From the NCBI RefSeq assembly GCF_008806375.1, contig NZ_WAAT01000044.1, forward strand, positions 1 through 45,287: a DNA stretch of 45,287 nt. Reading direction: 5' to 3'. The position numbers were made by a program, and so were the translations under genes. The notes beneath the pieces were generated by a model that saw only the letters and a program-made list of their open reading frames with translations, was not told the origin of the DNA and did no database searches. The DNA comes from Pseudotamlana haliotis (GTDB lineage: Bacteria > Bacteroidota > Bacteroidia > Flavobacteriales > Flavobacteriaceae). Shown here in pieces: positions 184 to 33,416 of this stretch. Numbering within the stretch: the first letter of the stretch is position 1; each line of letters begins with the position of its first letter.

Positions 184-3100
184 TTATTTCTTCATCACTT
201 TCACATTCATTTCTTCTACTTTTTTATCTGGTAATAGAGAAGGCGCTCCAAAAAGTAAGTCTTCACTGGTTCCTGTTTTTGGGAATGCCATAACCTCTCT
301 AATCGATGCTTTTTTCTCTAAAATCATCATTAAACGGTCTACACCCCAAGCAATTCCGCCGTGTGGAGGTGCCCCGTAGTGGAAGGCTTTGTACATGGTA
401 CCTACGCTGCGCATCATCTCTTCTTTGTTGTAGCCCATATTTTTGTATGTGGCTTCAAGAATTTCAGGTTTGTGAGCACGCACAGAACCACCACCAATTT
501 CGTAACCATTTAAGATTAAATCGTATTGTTGGGCGATAATACTTCCTATTTCTTCCTCTTTACCATTCATGTGTTTGTCTAAATCATAAATGGCTGGCAT
601 AGAAAACGGGTTGTGTGTGAACGTCCAGTGGCCTTCGTCTGTTTTTTCAAACATCGGGAAATCAACTACCCATGCCGGTCTTAATTCCTTAGGATTGATT
701 AAACGTAACATACTTCCTAATTCTTGACGTACCGCGTCTAGAGCTTTATTCGCCGTGGCATAATCGGCAGCCGAGAAGAATACAATATCACCAACTTGTG
801 CCTGAGTGGCTTCAATAATACCTGCAGCAATATCTTCACCTAAAAACTTGATGATTGGCGATTGTAAATCGTTTTCATTTACAATAATATAAGCCAAACC
901 ACCTAAACCGTGTTGTTGGGCAACACCAGTTAGTTTTTCAATCTGCCCTTTAGATAAACGTTTGCTGCCTTGCTCTTCAGCCGAAACTTTAATACATTTT
1001 ACAATACCACCTTCTTCAATAGGTTTACTAAATACCTGGAAAGTAGTGTCTTTAACAATTTCGGTAATGTCTTGTAATTTCAATCCGAAACGTAAATCTG
1101 GACGGTCGCAACCATAAGAATCCATGGCTTCTTTATAGGTAATGACTTCAAACGGGTGTAAAATCCATTTTTTGCCATATATTTTTTGAACAATGCTATT
1201 GAACATGTTCGTGTTCAAATCAATGATTTGTTGCATGCTACCGTAGGCCATTTCAATATCCAACTGTGTAAATTCTGGCTGACGGTCACCACGAGAATCT
1301 TCATCTCTAAAACAACGCGCTATTTGAAAGTACTTCTCGTAACCAGAAACCATCAACATTTGTTTGAATTGTTGTGGTGCCTGCGGAAGGGTGTAGAACG
1401 CACCAGCTTGCTTACGTGTAGGCACGATAAATTCACGTGCACCTTCATCGGTTCCAGCACTTAAAATAGGCGTTTCAATTTCTAAGAAATCTTGATCGTC
1501 TAGAATATCACGCATCATTTTAATCACTTTGTGGCGGTTCACAATCACGCGGCGCACATCGTCATTTCTATGGTCTAAATATTTATATTGAAAACGTACG
1601 TTTTCATTTGTTTTTGTTGCTCTTTTTATTTCGAAAGGCAATGTTTTAGAAAGGTTTAAAATTTCTAAATCTGTTGCTTCTAATTCAATTTTACCGGTAC
1701 GTAAAGCAGCGTTATAATCGTCTTCTTTTCGCTGTAAAACAGTGCCTGTTACCGTAATAACCGATTCTGGTTTTAGGCGTACCAATTCATCTAAATTAGG
1801 AAAAGACTCTCTACTCAAACGCACTTGGAAGATTTGCGTACTAGAATCACGTAAATCGATAAATATCAACTCCCCGTGATCACGCACGCTAGATACCCAT
1901 CCTGAAAGTGTAATGCTTTCAGAAATTTGTGCTTCCGAGACATTGGAAATCACATGAGTTCTATATTCGTCCTTAATAACGATAGGAATTTGTGGTAAAA
2001 CCTCTTCTTCCTTTTTTGTTGTTGGTTGATTGTTGCTGGTTGTTGCTTGCTCTGTGCTTCCGGCATCAGTATTCAATGTGCCGTCATTATTCCCAGAAAG
2101 AGCACCCAAAATGCCTTCGCGGATCACTTTTCCTGAAGCGCCTTTACCAATAATAGCAATCACTTTTCCAACAAGAATTCCGGCTTTACCTGGATTGCCC
2201 GATTTGATGTCGTTAGCAATGGCTTCGTTTTCAGAAATAACCTTGGCAATAGCTTCCTCTATTTGAGATTCAGAAATACTGTTGTCCTTAAAATATTTCT
2301 GGTAATCAAATGCGCGGTCTTTTAAATAGGCTGTTATTGCATTTTGAACCAAAACAGAAGTAACCTTATCTTCCTTAAACATTTGGAAGATTTCGATAAG
2401 GTGTTCAATGCGGTGAATCGAACCATAATCATCGGCTCCAATATTATTTACCAGCGTTTTTGCAACAAACGACGGATCTTTAATCACGTTATTAATCGCA
2501 ACAAAAGTTTCAGAACGTAGCGAATCTGCTGTAAAGAACTTAGCATCCTGAGGTAAAACACCACCTTTAATTAAAATGGATTCAACAGCAAAAGGTAAGG
2601 TTGAAACATCAACATCAATAGATTCAACGACCTCTTTAATGCTTACAAAAGGTAAGTCTGGTTCCGAAATAAAACGGTAATCAGCTTCAAATTCCTTTTT
2701 ACGCATGGTTTTGGTTTGCTTTAATTCAGCATCCCATAAAACCGTAGTCTGATCTGGTCTAAATTCTTTGTTTTCGATGTAGTAATTCAGTTGTTTTTCA
2801 ACTTCTTCCTTTAATGCATCGACCATAAACTTAAAGGAGTTCAGGTTTTTAATCTCGGTACGCGGATTTAACTCGTAGCCACGTTTTTTACGAAGCGACA
2901 CCGATACATCCGATTTAAACTCACCTTTTTCAAGGTTTGCTTCAGAGATTTTTAAATTCTGTACAATACGTTGAATGTACTGCGCGTAAGTTGAAGCATC
3001 TTCAATATGACGAATACATGGTTCAGTCACAATCTCAATTAGAGGAACCCCGGCTTTGTTAAAATCAACTAAAGACACTTTCTTTTCGTGCATCAGTTTT

Positions 3101-3525
3101 GCGGCATCTTCCTCGATATGAACCTGCGTTAAATTTACAGTAAACTGCGACCCATCATTACGGAAACAAGACACTTGTCCGTCTGGAATCACAGGGTTGT
3201 GAAACTGTGTAATTTGTATGTTTTTCGGATTATCTGGGTATTCATAGTGTTTTCTATCCCAAGAAATTACTTCGTTGGAAAAGGTTGATTTTACCGCTTT
3301 ACCAAAATAAATCGCCTTCGTGATAGCTTCTTTGTTTATGGCAGGTAAAACACCCATTTGCCCAGTACAAACCGAACAGATATTTTGATTAGGTTGTTCT
3401 ATTTCTTGATTGGCACAAGAACAGAATAATTTTGTATTGGTGTTTAATCGAACGTGGGTTTCCAGACCGATTACTAATTCTAAGTCGTGCTTTTTTAATA
3501 GCTCGTTTAATTGCTCCAGTTCCAT
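184..3525 (-). CDS. gatB-aspS: GatB-AspRS fusion: amidotransferase subunit B joined to aspartyl-tRNA synthetase
   Basis: One uninterrupted 1113-residue frame. Residues 1-476 are a full GatB: zinc cysteines C35, C37, C50, C53; GLETHV (20-25); HIEED (136-140); KAGVPLIEIVTEP (157-169); and the C-terminal YqeY-like tail (about 350-476). Residues 477-518 are a Ser/Thr/Asn/Glu-rich linker. Residues 519-1113 are a full bacterial-type AspRS: OB-fold anticodon domain (RDHGELIFIDLRD, 548-560), motif 1 around 680-701, motif 2 (FRDEDSRGDRQPEFTQLD, 739-756), a GAD insertion, and motif 3 (GGIAWGVDRL, 1056-1065). AspRS charges tRNA-Asp (and tRNA-Asn if non-discriminating); GatB, with GatA and GatC, converts mischarged Asp-tRNA-Asn or Glu-tRNA-Gln to the amide form. 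The ATG overlaps the gatA stop (TAATG). No Met codon occurs near the AspRS start, so AspRS is probably made only as a fusion. Both halves are identified with high confidence; the joint function is inferred. Confidence 0.97.
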   Translation of the reverse strand: MELEQLNELLKKHDLELVIGLETHVRLNTNTKLFCSCANQEIEQPNQNICSVCTGQMGVLPAINKEAITKAIYFGKAVKSTFSNEVISWDRKHYEYPDNPKNIQITQFHNPVIPDGQVSCFRNDGSQFTVNLTQVHIEEDAAKLMHEKKVSLVDFNKAGVPLIEIVTEPCIRHIEDASTYAQYIQRIVQNLKISEANLEKGEFKSDVSVSLRKKRGYELNPRTEIKNLNSFKFMVDALKEEVEKQLNYYIENKEFRPDQTTVLWDAELKQTKTMRKKEFEADYRFISEPDLPFVSIKEVVESIDVDVSTLPFAVESILIKGGVLPQDAKFFTADSLRSETFVAINNVIKDPSFVAKTLVNNIGADDYGSIHRIEHLIEIFQMFKEDKVTSVLVQNAITAYLKDRAFDYQKYFKDNSISESQIEEAIAKVISENEAIANDIKSGNPGKAGILVGKVIAIIGKGASGKVIREGILGALSGNNDGTLNTDAGSTEQATTSNNQPTTKKEEEVLPQIPIVIKDEYRTHVISNVSEAQISESITLSGWVSSVRDHGELIFIDLRDSSTQIFQVRLSRESFPNLDELVRLKPESVITVTGTVLQRKEDDYNAALRTGKIELEATDLEILNLSKTLPFEIKRATKTNENVRFQYKYLDHRNDDVRRVIVNRHKVIKMMRDILDDQDFLEIETPILSAGTDEGAREFIVPTRKQAGAFYTLPQAPQQFKQMLMVSGYEKYFQIARCFRDEDSRGDRQPEFTQLDIEMAYGSMQQIIDLNTNMFNSIVQKIYGKKWILHPFEVITYKEAMDSYGCDRPDLRFGLKLQDITEIVKDTTFQVFSKPIEEGGIVKCIKVSAEEQGSKRLSKGQIEKLTGVAQQHGLGGLAYIIVNENDLQSPIIKFLGEDIAAGIIEATQAQVGDIVFFSAADYATANKALDAVRQELGSMLRLINPKELRPAWVVDFPMFEKTDEGHWTFTHNPFSMPAIYDLDKHMNGKEEEIGSIIAQQYDLILNGYEIGGGSVRAHKPEILEATYKNMGYNKEEMMRSVGTMYKAFHYGAPPHGGIAWGVDRLMMILEKKASIREVMAFPKTGTSEDLLFGAPSLLPDKKVEEMNVKVMKK

Positions 3526-4925
3526 TATATCGTGTCTTTTAAGAAGTTAGCAAACTTCAAAACGAGTTCGTCATTATTTTTTGCGGCTGTAATTTGTAAG
3601 CCTGTACTTGTGCCTTGTGGTACGGTTAGCGTTGGTAGTTGCCCTAAGCTAAATCCAACCGTGTAAGCATCAGATAAATACATGGCTAGAGGATCTTTTA
3701 AACTATCGCCAATTTTAGGCGGTGTACTTGGTGTTACTGGTGACAGGATGATGTCTACTTCATTAAAATCTTTTTCAAAATTTTCTGAAATTTGATCTCT
3801 CAAGCCTAAACTTTTTAAATAGATTTCATCTGAAAATCCTTGTGATAACACTTGGTTTCCACCAACAATTCTACGTTTGGTTTCTTCTGAAAAATTCTCA
3901 GAACGGGTCACCGAGTAGGTTTCTTTTAAATTTTCAGCTTCAATACGGCTCCCGTAATTGGTGCCATCTAAACGTGAAAGGTTAGAGGCAGTTTCTGCCA
4001 TAGCTAGGGTGTAGTATGTAGAAACTAAAGTATTTGATTCAAAGAAATCTAAAGCTTTCACTTCAATGCCTTTGGCTTTTATTTTTTCGATGGTTGCTAA
4101 GAAATCTGCTTTTACTTCAGCATCAATGGCTTCAGATTCAATGAAATTCTTGAAGTAACCAATGGTTTTTATGTCTTCGGAAGTTGAAATCGCATCTTTA
4201 TCAATTTCCGCGGAAGCGTAAGTCGTTTGGTCCTTTACATCTTTTCCGCTCATAGCGTTTAACACGATGCGAATATCTTCAAGAGACTTGGCAATAGGGC
4301 CAACACAATCGGTTGAAGAGGCATAAGCCATTAATCCATAGCGTGAAATGCGCCCGTAAGTGGGTTTTAAACCATACACATTGTTGTAGCCTGCAGGCTG
4401 ACGAATAGAACCACCGGTATCACCTCCAATAGAGAAAACGGTGTAATCTTTAGCCACATTAACGGCCGATCCACCACTGGAACCACCGCCAACTAAATCG
4501 GGATTGTTGGCATTTTTTACGGCTCCGAAAATGGTGTTCTCACTTGAAGACCCATGCCCGAAACTGTCACAGTTTTCTTTTACTAACGGAATGGCGCCAG
4601 CATCCAATAATTTTTGAATGGCTGTCGCGGTGTATGCCGACTTATAATTTTTAAGCAAGTTTGAACTCGCCGTTGTTATCGTGCCTTGAACCATGTACAC
4701 GTCTTTAATACCAAAAGGAATTCCTTCTAATAAACCAATGCTTTCGCCATTGGCAATTTTAGCATCTACTTTTGCAGCCAGTTCTAAAGCTTTTTCGCCA
4801 AGTAGGGCGTTAACGGTATTGTTGGTGTTTTGCTTTAATGCGTCTAATTTACTTTGCACAAGTGCTGTACAAGTAATTTCCTTGTCCACCAGCTGTTGGT
4901 GGATTGTTTGTATTTGAGAGTCCAT
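3525..4925 (-). CDS. gatA: Asp-tRNA(Asn)/Glu-tRNA(Gln) amidotransferase subunit A
   Basis: A 466-residue amidase-signature enzyme that hydrolyses glutamine and supplies ammonia to GatB. The Ser-cisSer-Lys triad is intact by spacing with known GatA enzymes: K74 in EGIPFGIKD, S149 in GGGSSGGSA and S173 in GGDTGGSIRQPA. Length is close to the usual 480 or so. It sits between gatC (3 bases upstream) and the gatB-aspS fusion (1-base overlap), so translation is probably coupled and the products made in matched amounts. Small deviations from the common signature (VGGGSSGG where PGGSSGG is usual; GGDTGG for GSDTGG) leave the catalytic residues untouched. Confidence 0.97.
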   Translation of the reverse strand: MDSQIQTIHQQLVDKEITCTALVQSKLDALKQNTNNTVNALLGEKALELAAKVDAKIANGESIGLLEGIPFGIKDVYMVQGTITTASSNLLKNYKSAYTATAIQKLLDAGAIPLVKENCDSFGHGSSSENTIFGAVKNANNPDLVGGGSSGGSAVNVAKDYTVFSIGGDTGGSIRQPAGYNNVYGLKPTYGRISRYGLMAYASSTDCVGPIAKSLEDIRIVLNAMSGKDVKDQTTYASAEIDKDAISTSEDIKTIGYFKNFIESEAIDAEVKADFLATIEKIKAKGIEVKALDFFESNTLVSTYYTLAMAETASNLSRLDGTNYGSRIEAENLKETYSVTRSENFSEETKRRIVGGNQVLSQGFSDEIYLKSLGLRDQISENFEKDFNEVDIILSPVTPSTPPKIGDSLKDPLAMYLSDAYTVGFSLGQLPTLTVPQGTSTGLQITAAKNNDELVLKFANFLKDTI

Positions 4926-4928
4926 AAC

Positions 4929-5195
4929 TTATTCTTCGATGACTTTAGAAACGACTAAATAACCGTTTTTTTCTTTTGGGAAGTTTTCAATAATGATTTG
5001 TTTTTCCAGTGGAGAACTGTCAATCACTACGTCTTCTCTCAAATTATTTAATGACACGCAATTATGATTATTATTAAAAGAATTATTATTTGTAAGATTG
5101 GCATTTTTAATAACTTCAAATAATTTGTTCACAGTCTCGGAAGGCTGTGCTCCTTTAATACTCGACAAAACGTCGACTGTCATAATTTTACTCAT
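4929..5195 (-). CDS. gatC: Divergent GatC-like subunit of the amidotransferase
   Basis: An 88-residue protein at the head of the gatC-gatA-gatB-aspS operon. Its C-terminal half (LREDVV at 53-58, then ENFPKEKNGYLVVSKVIEE at the end) matches the GatC tail, which normally reads like LREDxV...aP....gyf.VPkVie and wraps around GatA and GatB. The N-terminal half does not show the usual GatC opening helix and instead has an Asn-rich stretch at about 35-52. Family membership rests on the tail plus position; the N-terminus is atypical. GatC is a structural subunit that helps GatA fold and docks it to GatB. Confidence 0.82.
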   Translation of the reverse strand: MSKIMTVDVLSSIKGAQPSETVNKLFEVIKNANLTNNNSFNNNHNCVSLNNLREDVVIDSSPLEKQIIIENFPKEKNGYLVVSKVIEE

Positions 5196-18971: not shown

Positions 18972-20102
18972 TTATTTTAAAAGTTCTAAAATTTCAACTT
19001 CAAATATCAGGTTTGATTTTCCCGGTATTCCTCGGGTTCCACTGTCACCGTAAGCTAAATGATAAGGTATAAACAAGGTGGCCTTGTCTCCAACATGAAG
19101 TTGTTGAAGGCCTTCTTTAAATCCAGGAATCATATGGGCATTAGGTTTGAGCTCCGCTGTAATCGGGTGGTATTTATTGGCGAATTTACGCTTTTTGTTT
19201 ACAGCACCAAGGGCTTCAGCGACATCAATTTTACTGGTTTCTATTAATTTTCCGTTAACAAAAAATACGGAGTAGTCTACCAAGGCTTTGGCGTTTTTGG
19301 GTAGCTTTTGTCCCTCGCCTTTTTCAGAAATATAAAACTTTAAACCTGAATCTAGGGTTGTGGCTTTTTCTTTTTGTTCTTCAAACTTATCGTGAGTGGC
19401 CTTTAAAGTGGCTGCGGCTTTTTCTTTTTTCTCTTTTGCGAGACGTTCTTCTTCAGCAAAGTGATCTTGGAAAATTTTAGGCGCATTAAAGGACTTTGCG
19501 GCTTTACCTTTTCTTATAATAATCACATGTTTTAAAACGATATCGTGTATCGGTCTGTGTTTTTCATTGGTATTTACGTTTGAAATAGAGTCTAAAACAT
19601 CGAGGCCAATAATAACTTCACCAAAAGCCGTATGTACATGATCTAAATGCGGTTTGGCAGCATCAGTAATGAAAAATTGACTTCCGTTAGCGTTTTCACC
19701 AGGATTAGCCATAGATAGAATACCGGGTTTGTCGTGTTTAATATCAGCATGAAACTCGTCCATGAATTTATAACCAGGGTTGCCCTTTCCTGTACCTGTA
19801 GGGTCTCCACCTTGAATCATGAAATCGTTCATTACCCTATGAAAAATGCTTCCATCGTAATATTTTTTACCCTTATAAGGCTTTTTAACCAAGGTGTTGG
19901 TGCCTTCAGCGAGGGAAACAAAATTAGCCACAGTTACCGGTGCTTTTTCGATGTCAAGCTTGGCAATCATGATGCCTTTTGAGGTTTTCAGTTCGGCATA
20001 CAAACCATCTTTCAATTCTGAGTAAGAAGGCTCACATGAGGAGAGGTTCAAGCAGAATATGCAAAGTATAATTTTAATCGTGTGCTTTACTATTATATTC
20101 AT
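18972..20102 (-). CDS. Lipoprotein with cyclophilin and FKBP isomerase domains
   Basis: 376 residues from the ATG at 20102, chosen because it overlaps the gldI stop as ATGA and starts a proper lipoprotein signal (MNIIVKHTI...LNLSSC, lipid Cys 23); a longer frame start at 20138 would bury the signal. Domain 1 (about 35-205) is a cyclophilin: [34 protein letters not shown] and [14 protein letters not shown] charged Glu/Lys/Ala helix (about 215-250) links it to an FKBP domain (about 255-376) with [19 protein letters not shown] and [10 protein letters not shown]. Both fold families catalyse prolyl cis-trans isomerisation; lipidation predicts a periplasmic, membrane-tethered chaperone. It follows gldI, another FKBP lipoprotein. 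Confidence 0.92.
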
Positions 20103-20635
20103 TCGCTTTGAGTAATTGAATTTACAGTAACTTGGCAAATTAAAGGTATGTTGCTTCCAATTCTGTTTTCATCGCCATAATAACCGTAGGCCTTTTGAGA
20201 AGGGAAGTAGAAGGTCACTGTTTCACCTGTTTTCATGAGTTTTAAGCCTTCACGTAGTCCTGTGAATAACTCCTCCTTATCCATGGTGTAATTTTGAGTT
20301 TTTAATTCTTCTGCAGAATAAATTAATTTACCATTAAGTGTTTTTACGTTGTAATTATAGTTTACTAAATCACCAAGATCTGGTGTTTCTAAAGAATCTA
20401 CTTCAATTTTTGTGTTATAGTAGTACCAAAAACCGCTATCGGAAGCCAAGTACTCTTGACCTTCTTGGTTTAATATTTTTTCAATTGTAGCATGTTCCCT
20501 AGCATTAAGCTTTTTGTTACGTTCAACAGAAGCATCAATGAAAGAGCCAGATTTTACAGAAACAGGTTTGCGCGGTTCGGGCATTTTGCAGCCAAAAGCA
20601 ACAAGAGCTAATGCGATTAATAGTAGTTTATGCAT
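20099..20635 (-). CDS. gldI: Gliding-motility FKBP-type isomerase lipoprotein GldI
   Basis: 178 residues, lipobox LVAFGC (Cys 16). The C-terminal two thirds are FKBP-like ([20 protein letters not shown], then [34 protein letters not shown]). The sequence and the company of a DHH phosphoesterase and a second isomerase fit GldI of Flavobacteria, a lipoprotein required for gliding and hence for the type IX secretion/gliding machinery. It overlaps the upstream DHH gene by 8 bases and the downstream isomerase gene by 4 (ATGA). A T9SS sorting domain elsewhere in the window (44048) agrees with the organism having that machinery. Confidence 0.88.
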
Positions 20636-31835: not shown

Positions 31836-33416
31836 TTAATTATTTGCTTTTTTGTGTTTTCTCCATTTGCTAAATCCGAAATAACCTGCTAGTAAAATTA
31901 AAAACGGAATTAAGAATGAGGTGGCTTTTCCTTCGCCGCTCACGGTCGTAAAGAAACGGTCCCATCTAGCTTTAGCGCCATCCCAACTCATCCAGATAAA
32001 TACAGGTTTACCAACCACGTGATCAAACGGTACGAAGCCCCAAGCACGAGCATCTATAGAATTGTGGCGGTTGTCACCCATCATCCAATAGTAATTTTGC
32101 TTGAACGTGTAGTTATTGGCTACTTCACCATTAATTAAAATTTGATTGCCTTGAACTTTAATGTCGTTACCTTCATATTCTGAAATCACACGTTTGTATA
32201 ATGGCAAGTTTTCTAAGTTAATAGCAATGCTTTTCCCTTCTTCAGGGATATATAATGGTCCGAAAAAATCAACATTCCAATTGTATGCCGGATCATGAGG
32301 AAAGATGTTTGGATCGCGTTGCCCTTTTTCTTGAATGTTAGGTGTGATGCTAACGACATTCGGGTTATTTTTAAAATTCGCTAAGGCCTCATCTGAAATT
32401 GCCGAGAAGTAGTAGGTATTCTTATCGTTTATAATTCCAAAGCCATCAGTAATGTCATAGCGATCCTTAAGAAACTGAGGGTTAAATTGATTGGTTTTAG
32501 GCTGAACAAAATAACTGAATTGCAGATGAGCACGGTCTGGCAATTCATTTTTCTTACCATTGATATATACAAAGCCTTCTCTAATTTCTAAAGTATCGCC
32601 AGCAACACCAACACAACGTTTTACAAGGTTGGTTTTCTTGTCAATAGGTTTGTAATAGTTTCTGTCTGGTTTGAAATTATTCATATCAAGTAGCGTATCC
32701 GCTGGCTGATTAAATACTACAATATCATTACGCTCAATGTCTTCAAAACCAGGAAACCTTAAATAAGGTAGTTGTAATTTGTTTTTCCATGAGGTCTTTC
32801 TTTTATCGTAGCGGTCATCAAATAAATAGGATTTAATCCCTGGGCCAGGAATCGTATCATGAACCATTGGAGCTGCTACGGTAGTCATAGGAACTCTGGC
32901 TCCGTAATGAAATTTACTTACAAATAAGAAGTCACCTACCAATAATGATTTTTCTAAAGATGACGACGGAATGGTAAACGGTTGAATGATATAAGTGTGT
33001 ACTATAGTCGCTGCAACGATAGCGAACAGTATCGAGCTTATCCAGTCACCGCTATTCGTTGTTGGTGATAAGCTGCGGTTTTCAACATAGGTCACCTCTG
33101 CGGCATAGTTCAGGTAATAATTGTAAAAACCTAAGCTTACTATAGCTAAAACAGTATCTAATGTTTCGTTTTTACCAAAGCTTCTTGCGGTTTCTACCCA
33201 AACTACAGGAAACATAATAAGGTTAACAATGGGTAAAAATAAAAGAATAACCCACCATACTGGTCGGTTTATAATTTTCATTAAAACAATGGCGTTGTAA
33301 ACAGGAACAAAGGCTTCCCAAGATTGTCTGCCTGCTTTAATATATAGTTTCCAGGTGCCTAAACCATGTAAAACCTGAATAATTAAAATAAAAATTAACC
33401 ACTGTGTTAATGTCAT
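31836..33416 (-). CDS. lepB: Signal peptidase I
   Basis: 526 residues, longer than the E. coli enzyme (324). An N-terminal block of about four membrane helices (1-115, DUF5684-like) precedes the S26 domain. The nucleophile is S153 in FTIPSSSLEKSLLVGD (the usual following Met is Leu here) and the general base is K266 in LVKRCVGVAGDTLEI; later boxes GDNRHNSIDARAWGFVP and a C-terminal membrane helix are present. It cleaves signal peptides of exported proteins outside the inner membrane. A large insert (about 275-420) lies between boxes, as is common in Bacteroidetes. Confidence 0.96.
   Translation of the reverse strand: MTLTQWLIFILIIQVLHGLGTWKLYIKAGRQSWEAFVPVYNAIVLMKIINRPVWWVILLFLPIVNLIMFPVVWVETARSFGKNETLDTVLAIVSLGFYNYYLNYAAEVTYVENRSLSPTTNSGDWISSILFAIVAATIVHTYIIQPFTIPSSSLEKSLLVGDFLFVSKFHYGARVPMTTVAAPMVHDTIPGPGIKSYLFDDRYDKRKTSWKNKLQLPYLRFPGFEDIERNDIVVFNQPADTLLDMNNFKPDRNYYKPIDKKTNLVKRCVGVAGDTLEIREGFVYINGKKNELPDRAHLQFSYFVQPKTNQFNPQFLKDRYDITDGFGIINDKNTYYFSAISDEALANFKNNPNVVSITPNIQEKGQRDPNIFPHDPAYNWNVDFFGPLYIPEEGKSIAINLENLPLYKRVISEYEGNDIKVQGNQILINGEVANNYTFKQNYYWMMGDNRHNSIDARAWGFVPFDHVVGKPVFIWMSWDGAKARWDRFFTTVSGEGKATSFLIPFLILLAGYFGFSKWRKHKKANN

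Follow-up and report, generated by a model that had tools for sequence, protein, structure and literature searches.

Can a bacterium make asparagine on its tRNA with a synthetase and an amidotransferase that are joined in a single protein chain? This question is raised by a gene of Pseudotamlana haliotis (Flavobacteriaceae) on contig NZ_WAAT01000044.1, of which we analysed positions 1 to 45,287 (the window, 45,287 nucleotides in full). The gene encodes GatB, a subunit of the amidotransferase GatCAB, followed in the same frame by an aspartyl-tRNA synthetase (AspRS). From our analysis of the sequences, GatC, GatA and GatB::AspRS are likely to constitute a covalent transamidosome for tRNA-dependent asparagine synthesis. 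As the fused relatives are without the usual asparagine-making enzyme, the fusion is probably the route by which these bacteria make asparagine.

The gene is a minus-strand frame with an ATG start, 1113 amino acids and zero internal stops, and is composed of the following parts:

184..3525, minus strand: gatB::aspS fusion gene, 1113 codons plus stop (open frame; NCBIfam and Pfam; best 80 relatives all fused)
2098..3525, minus strand: GatB part, residues 1-476, with GatB_N at 17-298 and a YqeY-like tail to about 476 (NCBIfam, Pfam)
3367..3423, minus strand: CxC...CxxC of GatB (C35, C37, C50, C53), the pattern being present in 81/81 full-length fused copies
1972..2097, minus strand: linker, residues 477-518 (about 42), rich in E/K/T/S/Q/A/N, without a conserved internal ATG
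187..1971, minus strand: AspRS part, residues 519-1113, bacterial type (NF001750)
1657..1914, minus strand: OB fold (anticodon-binding), residues 538-623 (PF01336)
739..1032, minus strand: GAD insertion domain, residues 832-929 (PF02938)
1876..1878, minus strand: codon of His550, which aligns with a His of the solved chains 4wj3_M, 4o2d_A and 4rmf_A

The initial annotation had described GatB, linker and AspRS in one uninterrupted frame, and the frame, NCBIfam and Pfam all agree with it. The GatB equivalog NF004012 covers residues 14-476 with 391.6 bits (cut-off 338) and the AspRS equivalog NF001750 covers residues 520-1112 with 713.7 bits (cut-off 443). In the GatB half, Pfam finds GatB_N (PF02934, 17-298) and a weak GatB_Yqey (PF02637, 372-472; 34.9 bits, cut-off 27), both above cut-off, the relatives of this half in the PDB are 3h0l_B, 3al0_B, 3kfu_F and 4wj3_B, and the four cysteines presumably form a zinc site. 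The class II core of the synthetase (PF00152) spans residues 640-1084. The fused AspRS has the equivalog score, the class II motifs and the GAD insertion of a bacterial AspRS, and the archaeal-type models score below their cut-offs on the fusion protein (NF003483, 212.2 bits against 353; TIGR00458, 187.6 against 368.4). The proposal that GatB and AspRS are evolutionarily linked by a shared GAD domain fails for this GatB, in which Pfam finds no GAD; the domain is confined to the AspRS half.

Neither an assembly error nor a chance event explains the fusion, both being ruled out by its recurrence. A scan of named genomes confirmed at least 567 relatives, and the best 80 loci, which were kept for comparison, are all full-length fusions from Tamlana, Algibacter, Polaribacter, Lutibacter, Flavobacterium and others. 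In a family sample of 149 Flavobacteriaceae genomes, the window's included, GatB occurs in 23 and is fused to AspRS in all 23 (open frames of 1115-1123 amino acids). The suggested search for relatives that span both enzymes has thus yielded many of them within the family. In a phylum sample, 247/296 genomes carry GatB, and outside the family the open frames are 475-621 amino acids long, none being fused by length among the matches listed. Aligned with the window, the 80 loci give 81 rows, and five further copies, truncated in GatB because the locus ends there, bring the fused rows to 86. Motif 2, motif 3 and the EIGGGS pattern are found in 86/86. The ratio of nonsynonymous to synonymous substitution rates (dN/dS), estimated for the window against nine relatives, is 0.03-0.06 for the GatB half and likewise for the AspRS half (one value per half was not estimable), and purifying selection on the two is strong. 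In a tree of the 80 fusions, two rows named Flavobacterium group with Lutibacter (support 93, a fork that was left open), and the grouping may reflect horizontal transfer.

The linker evolves faster (dN/dS 0.24-0.54). Counted from where the YqeY part ends up to RTH in AspRS, its length is 41-51 residues in 77/86 fused rows, those that allowed a measurement. This fast evolution and low complexity would suit another explanation, in which cleavage or internal initiation yields GatB and AspRS as two proteins and the fused gene serves co-expression only; likewise, 59/77 rows have an ATG, GTG or TTG codon inside the linker or no more than 10 codons away. However, the remaining 18 rows have none of the three, the ten ATGs of the region are scattered at varying positions over 9/77 rows with no conserved internal start, and the window and the 80 loci all retain the open frame. 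We regard such a split as quite improbable, and we infer that the fusion stays a single chain and that a complex is formed.

For what would a cell need such an enzyme? An indication came from the asparagine synthetases. In the window's genome, which is 99.89% complete, AsnA was not found, and no other asparagine synthetase was found either. Its sole PF00733 match, with 21.1 bits, was considered as a candidate and rejected, as it is MnmA. With a true AsnB as query, which comes from an unfused genome and scores 951.7 bits on the asparagine synthase B model, a BLAST search of the family sample (E below 1e-100) found AsnB in 0/23 fused genomes vs 109/126 unfused ones. The latter count takes in a few partial genes, as well as genomes whose AsnB-like proteins are of a second type only (about 50% identity). 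AsnA was found in 0/23 fused and 10/126 unfused genomes. Taken together, AsnA or AsnB is present in none of the 23 fused genomes but in 115/126 of those without GatB (Fisher p 4.6e-19, kinship ignored), and among genomes at least 90% complete in 0/21 vs 99/104 (kinship again ignored). The same split recurs within one genus, g2, which is probably Flavobacterium: AsnB was found in 0/2 fused vs 10/10 unfused genomes tested, the ten being those among the 20 listed of the 49 phylum-sample genomes without GatB. AsnB was also found in 0/30 genomes of a tested subset of the 80 named fused ones, of which at least three (G467, G453 and G459) appear identical to the already counted G202, G300 and G423. 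The AsnA search was confined to genomes other than G154, G202, the ten unfused g2 genomes taken together and the 30 named fused genomes. As a separate observation, a second AsnB-like gene (47-51% identity to the query) lies within about 2.5 kb of asnB in 8/10 unfused g2 genomes (G068, G142, G218, G021, G174, G025, G206 and G170).

The synthetases of the fused genomes sharpen this picture. The window's genome has one gatB, the fused one, which settles the suggested check for a second copy. It has four PF00152 proteins, namely the fusion, a free AspRS of 584 amino acids, an asparaginyl-tRNA synthetase (AsnRS) and a lysyl-tRNA synthetase (LysRS). Free AspRS, AsnRS and LysRS are present in 25/25 fused genomes searched, one of which has an additional sub-threshold fragment; these calls are by PF00152 score and frame length, and naming by NCBIfam was done in the window's genome. 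The expectation of no separate full-length aspS, which had been named beforehand as decisive for the covalent transamidosome, is therefore contradicted, and the fusion need not serve as the cell's AspRS for tRNA-Asp. Glutamyl- and glutaminyl-tRNA synthetases (GluRS and GlnRS), searched in the window's genome only, are both encoded there (glnS 710.6 bits, cut-off 425.8). Since AsnRS and GlnRS are present, GatCAB is dispensable in this genome for charging tRNA-Gln or tRNA-Asn. Taken with the missing AsnA and AsnB, the presence of free AspRS, AsnRS and GlnRS strengthens the transamidosome interpretation and makes it specific to asparagine synthesis on tRNA-Asn, as opposed to general charging. In a side observation, the GlnRS (L006 1357-3411, plus strand) scores 819 bits on the GlnRS/YqeY fusion family NF011291 (cut-off 681), and because the match is limited to positions 7-605 of 769, its C-terminal tail may differ in type.

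These data also bear on the alternative that GatCAB serves Gln-tRNA-Gln and that the AspRS half acts as an additional synthetase for tRNA-Asp. GatCAB amidates Glu-tRNA-Gln in other bacteria, as a passage of PMC4206432 describes, and tRNA-Gln has U1-A72 by our own reading. Against this stand the GlnRS of the window's genome, the free AspRS of every fused genome searched and the constant presence of AspRS on the GatB of the family sample (23/23), and we consider this alternative hardly probable at all. The fused AspRS is also unlikely to be a recent copy of the local aspS: it shares 36.7-38.8% identity with the 25 free copies, and its PDB scores (459.6 bits for 1efw, 439.9 for 4wj3_M and 430.1 for 6wom) show no preference for 6wom, to which the free AspRS is closest (987.8 bits).

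The other subunits of the amidotransferase are encoded upstream of the fusion gene:

3525..4925, minus strand: gatA, 466 amino acids; its stop codon shares one base with the start codon of the fusion
4929..5195, minus strand: gatC, 88 amino acids, divergent sequence (TIGR00135, PF02686)

The operon runs in one direction in the order gatC-gatA-gatB::aspS, and a hairpin with a T run is visible by eye just past the stop of the fusion gene, near 100-130. GatA keeps K74, S150 and S173, which we take to be the amidase triad, in 81/81 rows. Homologues of gatA and gatC lie upstream of the fusion in 80/80 loci, so AspRS and the three Gat subunits are all encoded. The covalent transamidosome that the initial annotation had proposed thus holds in part: the link between a GatCAB subunit and AspRS is conserved, and GatA as well as the two halves of the fusion have intact catalytic motifs, but a free AspRS stands beside it in 25/25 fused genomes. 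In the proposed mechanism, the fused synthetase (AspRS2) would load aspartate onto tRNA-Asn, and the tethered GatCAB, judging from the chemistry of its family, would amidate Asp-tRNA-Asn to Asn-tRNA-Asn before release. The free AspRS would charge tRNA-Asp and AsnRS would charge tRNA-Asn when free asparagine is available, such that the GatB::AspRS route could stand in for the lost asparagine synthetase.

A non-discriminating AspRS charges tRNA-Asn in addition to tRNA-Asp, and we take His at position 550 of the anticodon domain, where E. coli has Leu, to be a mark of such enzymes. In five alignments with solved chains, the fusion shares RDHG with 4wj3_M and 4rmf_A, both titled tRNA(Asp/Asn) ligase, and with 4o2d_A, titled aspartate--tRNA ligase, and the remaining two chains, presumably Thermus-type, have RDLG, one of them being titled tRNA(Asp) ligase. 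Position 550 is His in 81/81 fused copies, and the free copies have Lys (24/25) or Leu (1/25). On the side of the substrate, ARAGORN found one tRNA-Cys and no tRNA-Asn in 60 fetched loci, and nine tRNAs in 40 genome stretches, one of which is a tRNA-Asn and none a tRNA-Asp. This one tRNA-Asn (L204 19175-19249, plus strand) has U1-A72 and G73 by our own reading, features that fit the needs of amidation and of AspRS.

Several observations weigh against a covalent transamidosome for asparagine. The best family of GatA, TIGR00132, gives 434.5 bits, under its cut-off of 481.1, and GatC reaches 25.5 bits on TIGR00135, well below the cut-off of 47.1, and 22.3 bits on PF02686, just below 23. The AlphaFold model of the fusion is poor, with a mean predicted local distance difference test (pLDDT) of 46.3, a predicted template modelling score (pTM) of 0.27 and a linker pLDDT of about 24. 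Confidence is fair only in the anticodon domain and in the helical tail of GatB (about 330-478), and the low values make the model no guide to the arrangement of the domains. Position 602 is Asp in 80/81 fused copies, where 4wj3_M has Gly and the free copies have Lys, so that the resemblance of the anticodon site to that of a known non-discriminating AspRS is partial. In the catalytic part, two positions consistently differ from the free AspRS, A716 for Ser and N972 for His, which are among 109 columns that are fixed differently between the two sets. The D loop of the tRNA-Asn, AGTTGGTTA, appears by our own reading to hold U20a, and a passage of PMC9976931 describes U20a of tRNA-Asp as an antideterminant that blocks amidation.

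The remaining objections concern asparagine itself and bear on a rival explanation, in which the fusion supplies Asn-tRNA-Asn as a spare route next to AsnRS, asparagine is imported or made by an AsnB-like paralogue, and the missing AsnB simply reflects lineage. The related genomes are not independent samples, AsnRS accompanies the fusion in 25/25 genomes, and 9/23 fused genomes carry AsnB-like proteins above the cut-off of the 'asparagine synthase' family TIGR01536. Furthermore, neither AsnA nor AsnB was found in 11/126 unfused genomes, five of them at least 90% complete, which indicates that the loss is possible without the fusion. On the other hand, 14/23 fused genomes, the window's included, have zero matches above the TIGR01536 cut-off, and the AsnB split recurs within g2. 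We therefore consider a spare route unlikely. As for the AsnB-like proteins, eight of them from 7/9 genomes were rejected as true AsnB with 249.5-312 bits on asparagine synthase B (cut-off 499). All eight pass the broader TIGR01536, and their best match is an XrtA-type amidotransferase model in five (all sub-cut-off) and TIGR01536 in three. Those of G327 and G354, assessed by BLAST only, gave best E values of 6.7e-18 and 9.3e-31. By their sequences the AsnB-like proteins look like paralogues of polysaccharide clusters, which could retain some activity. Among the 11 unfused genomes negative for AsnA and AsnB, some are small or incomplete, and G391 and G416 have AsnB-like paralogues only.

A bolder form of the covalent transamidosome, which we put forward tentatively and hold to be doubtful, is that the fused AspRS is a dedicated Asp-tRNA-Asn synthetase that has lost tRNA-Asp, that the tether offsets the poor quality of a U20a-bearing tRNA-Asn as a substrate of free GatCAB, and that a single-purpose covalent asparagine factory has replaced AsnB across part of the family. 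Since a free AspRS to charge tRNA-Asp is present in every fused genome searched, the fused one would be free to specialise. The GluRS2 of H. pylori, specialised for tRNA-Gln according to a passage of PMC9976931, offers a parallel.

How does this system compare with those already known? The Asn-transamidosome of non-discriminating AspRS (ND-AspRS), tRNA-Asn and GatCAB (4wj3, 3kfu) has the same parts, AspRS, GatA, GatB and GatC, and the chemistry we propose is the same. The second AspRS of Deinococcus and Thermus, which resembles the fused one in being an additional copy, is, we assume, a free protein. In the Asn-transamidosome, separate enzymes are held together by tRNA-Asn in a tRNA-dependent assembly that is stable through both steps (a passage of PMC9499178), whereas here AspRS is the C-terminal half of the GatB chain, the two being encoded by one open frame in the window and at each of the 80 loci. 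Deinococcus radiodurans and Thermus thermophilus are described in passages of PMC4206432 as having AsnRS, GlnRS, GatCAB and the second AspRS, as does the window's genome, which is without AsnA and AsnB; their second AspRS, however, is of archaeal type, and the present one is of bacterial type with GAD and is fused to GatB. According to the same passages, Bdellovibrio bacteriovorus likewise has AsnRS, GlnRS and GatCAB, no AsnA or AsnB, and makes asparagine on tRNA, but with a single ND-AspRS that does both jobs. The survey reported there covers 547 genera, of which 18, with Bacteroidetes among the clades, have AsnRS, GlnRS and GatCAB and no asparagine synthetase; five of these have a second AspRS, which is always archaeal in type, and all five belong to Deinococcus-Thermus (PMC4206432).

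A covalent link between AspRS and an amidotransferase subunit is already known by annotation, as NCBI has curated NF009460 (PRK12820), a bifunctional AspRS / amidotransferase subunit C. That family carries GatC instead of GatB and has AspRS first (model positions 24-615 of 723), whereas GatB comes first here; the present fusion, which reaches 471.1 bits where the cut-off is 1379 and lacks a GatC domain, is not a member. What differs here is that the other subunit, GatB, is joined, in reverse order, and that the fusion is coupled with a missing asparagine synthetase. No GatB-AspRS fusion is named in the titles, abstract starts and passages of the literature searched, a scope that lies outside subscription papers and protein-database annotations, and the supplementary tables of PMC4206432 could list one; the passages of PMC6523644, PMC9437257, PMC8762117, PMC4301749 and PMC3532385 name none. 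A natural covalent form of a complex otherwise held by tRNA would make channelling of the mischarged intermediate directly testable, and the replacement of AsnB by gatCAB::aspS within one family would offer matched species pairs for asking when cells make an amino acid on tRNA. If the interpretation is true, these bacteria have a route to asparagine that can be overlooked when genes are annotated one at a time, and predictions of their asparagine auxotrophy would be wrong.

Two further composite frames were observed on the minus strand of the window. The first, at 18972-20138, holds cyclophilin-type and FKBP-type prolyl isomerase domains in one frame, and the second, at 31836-33416, joins an N-terminal DUF5684 domain to signal peptidase S26.

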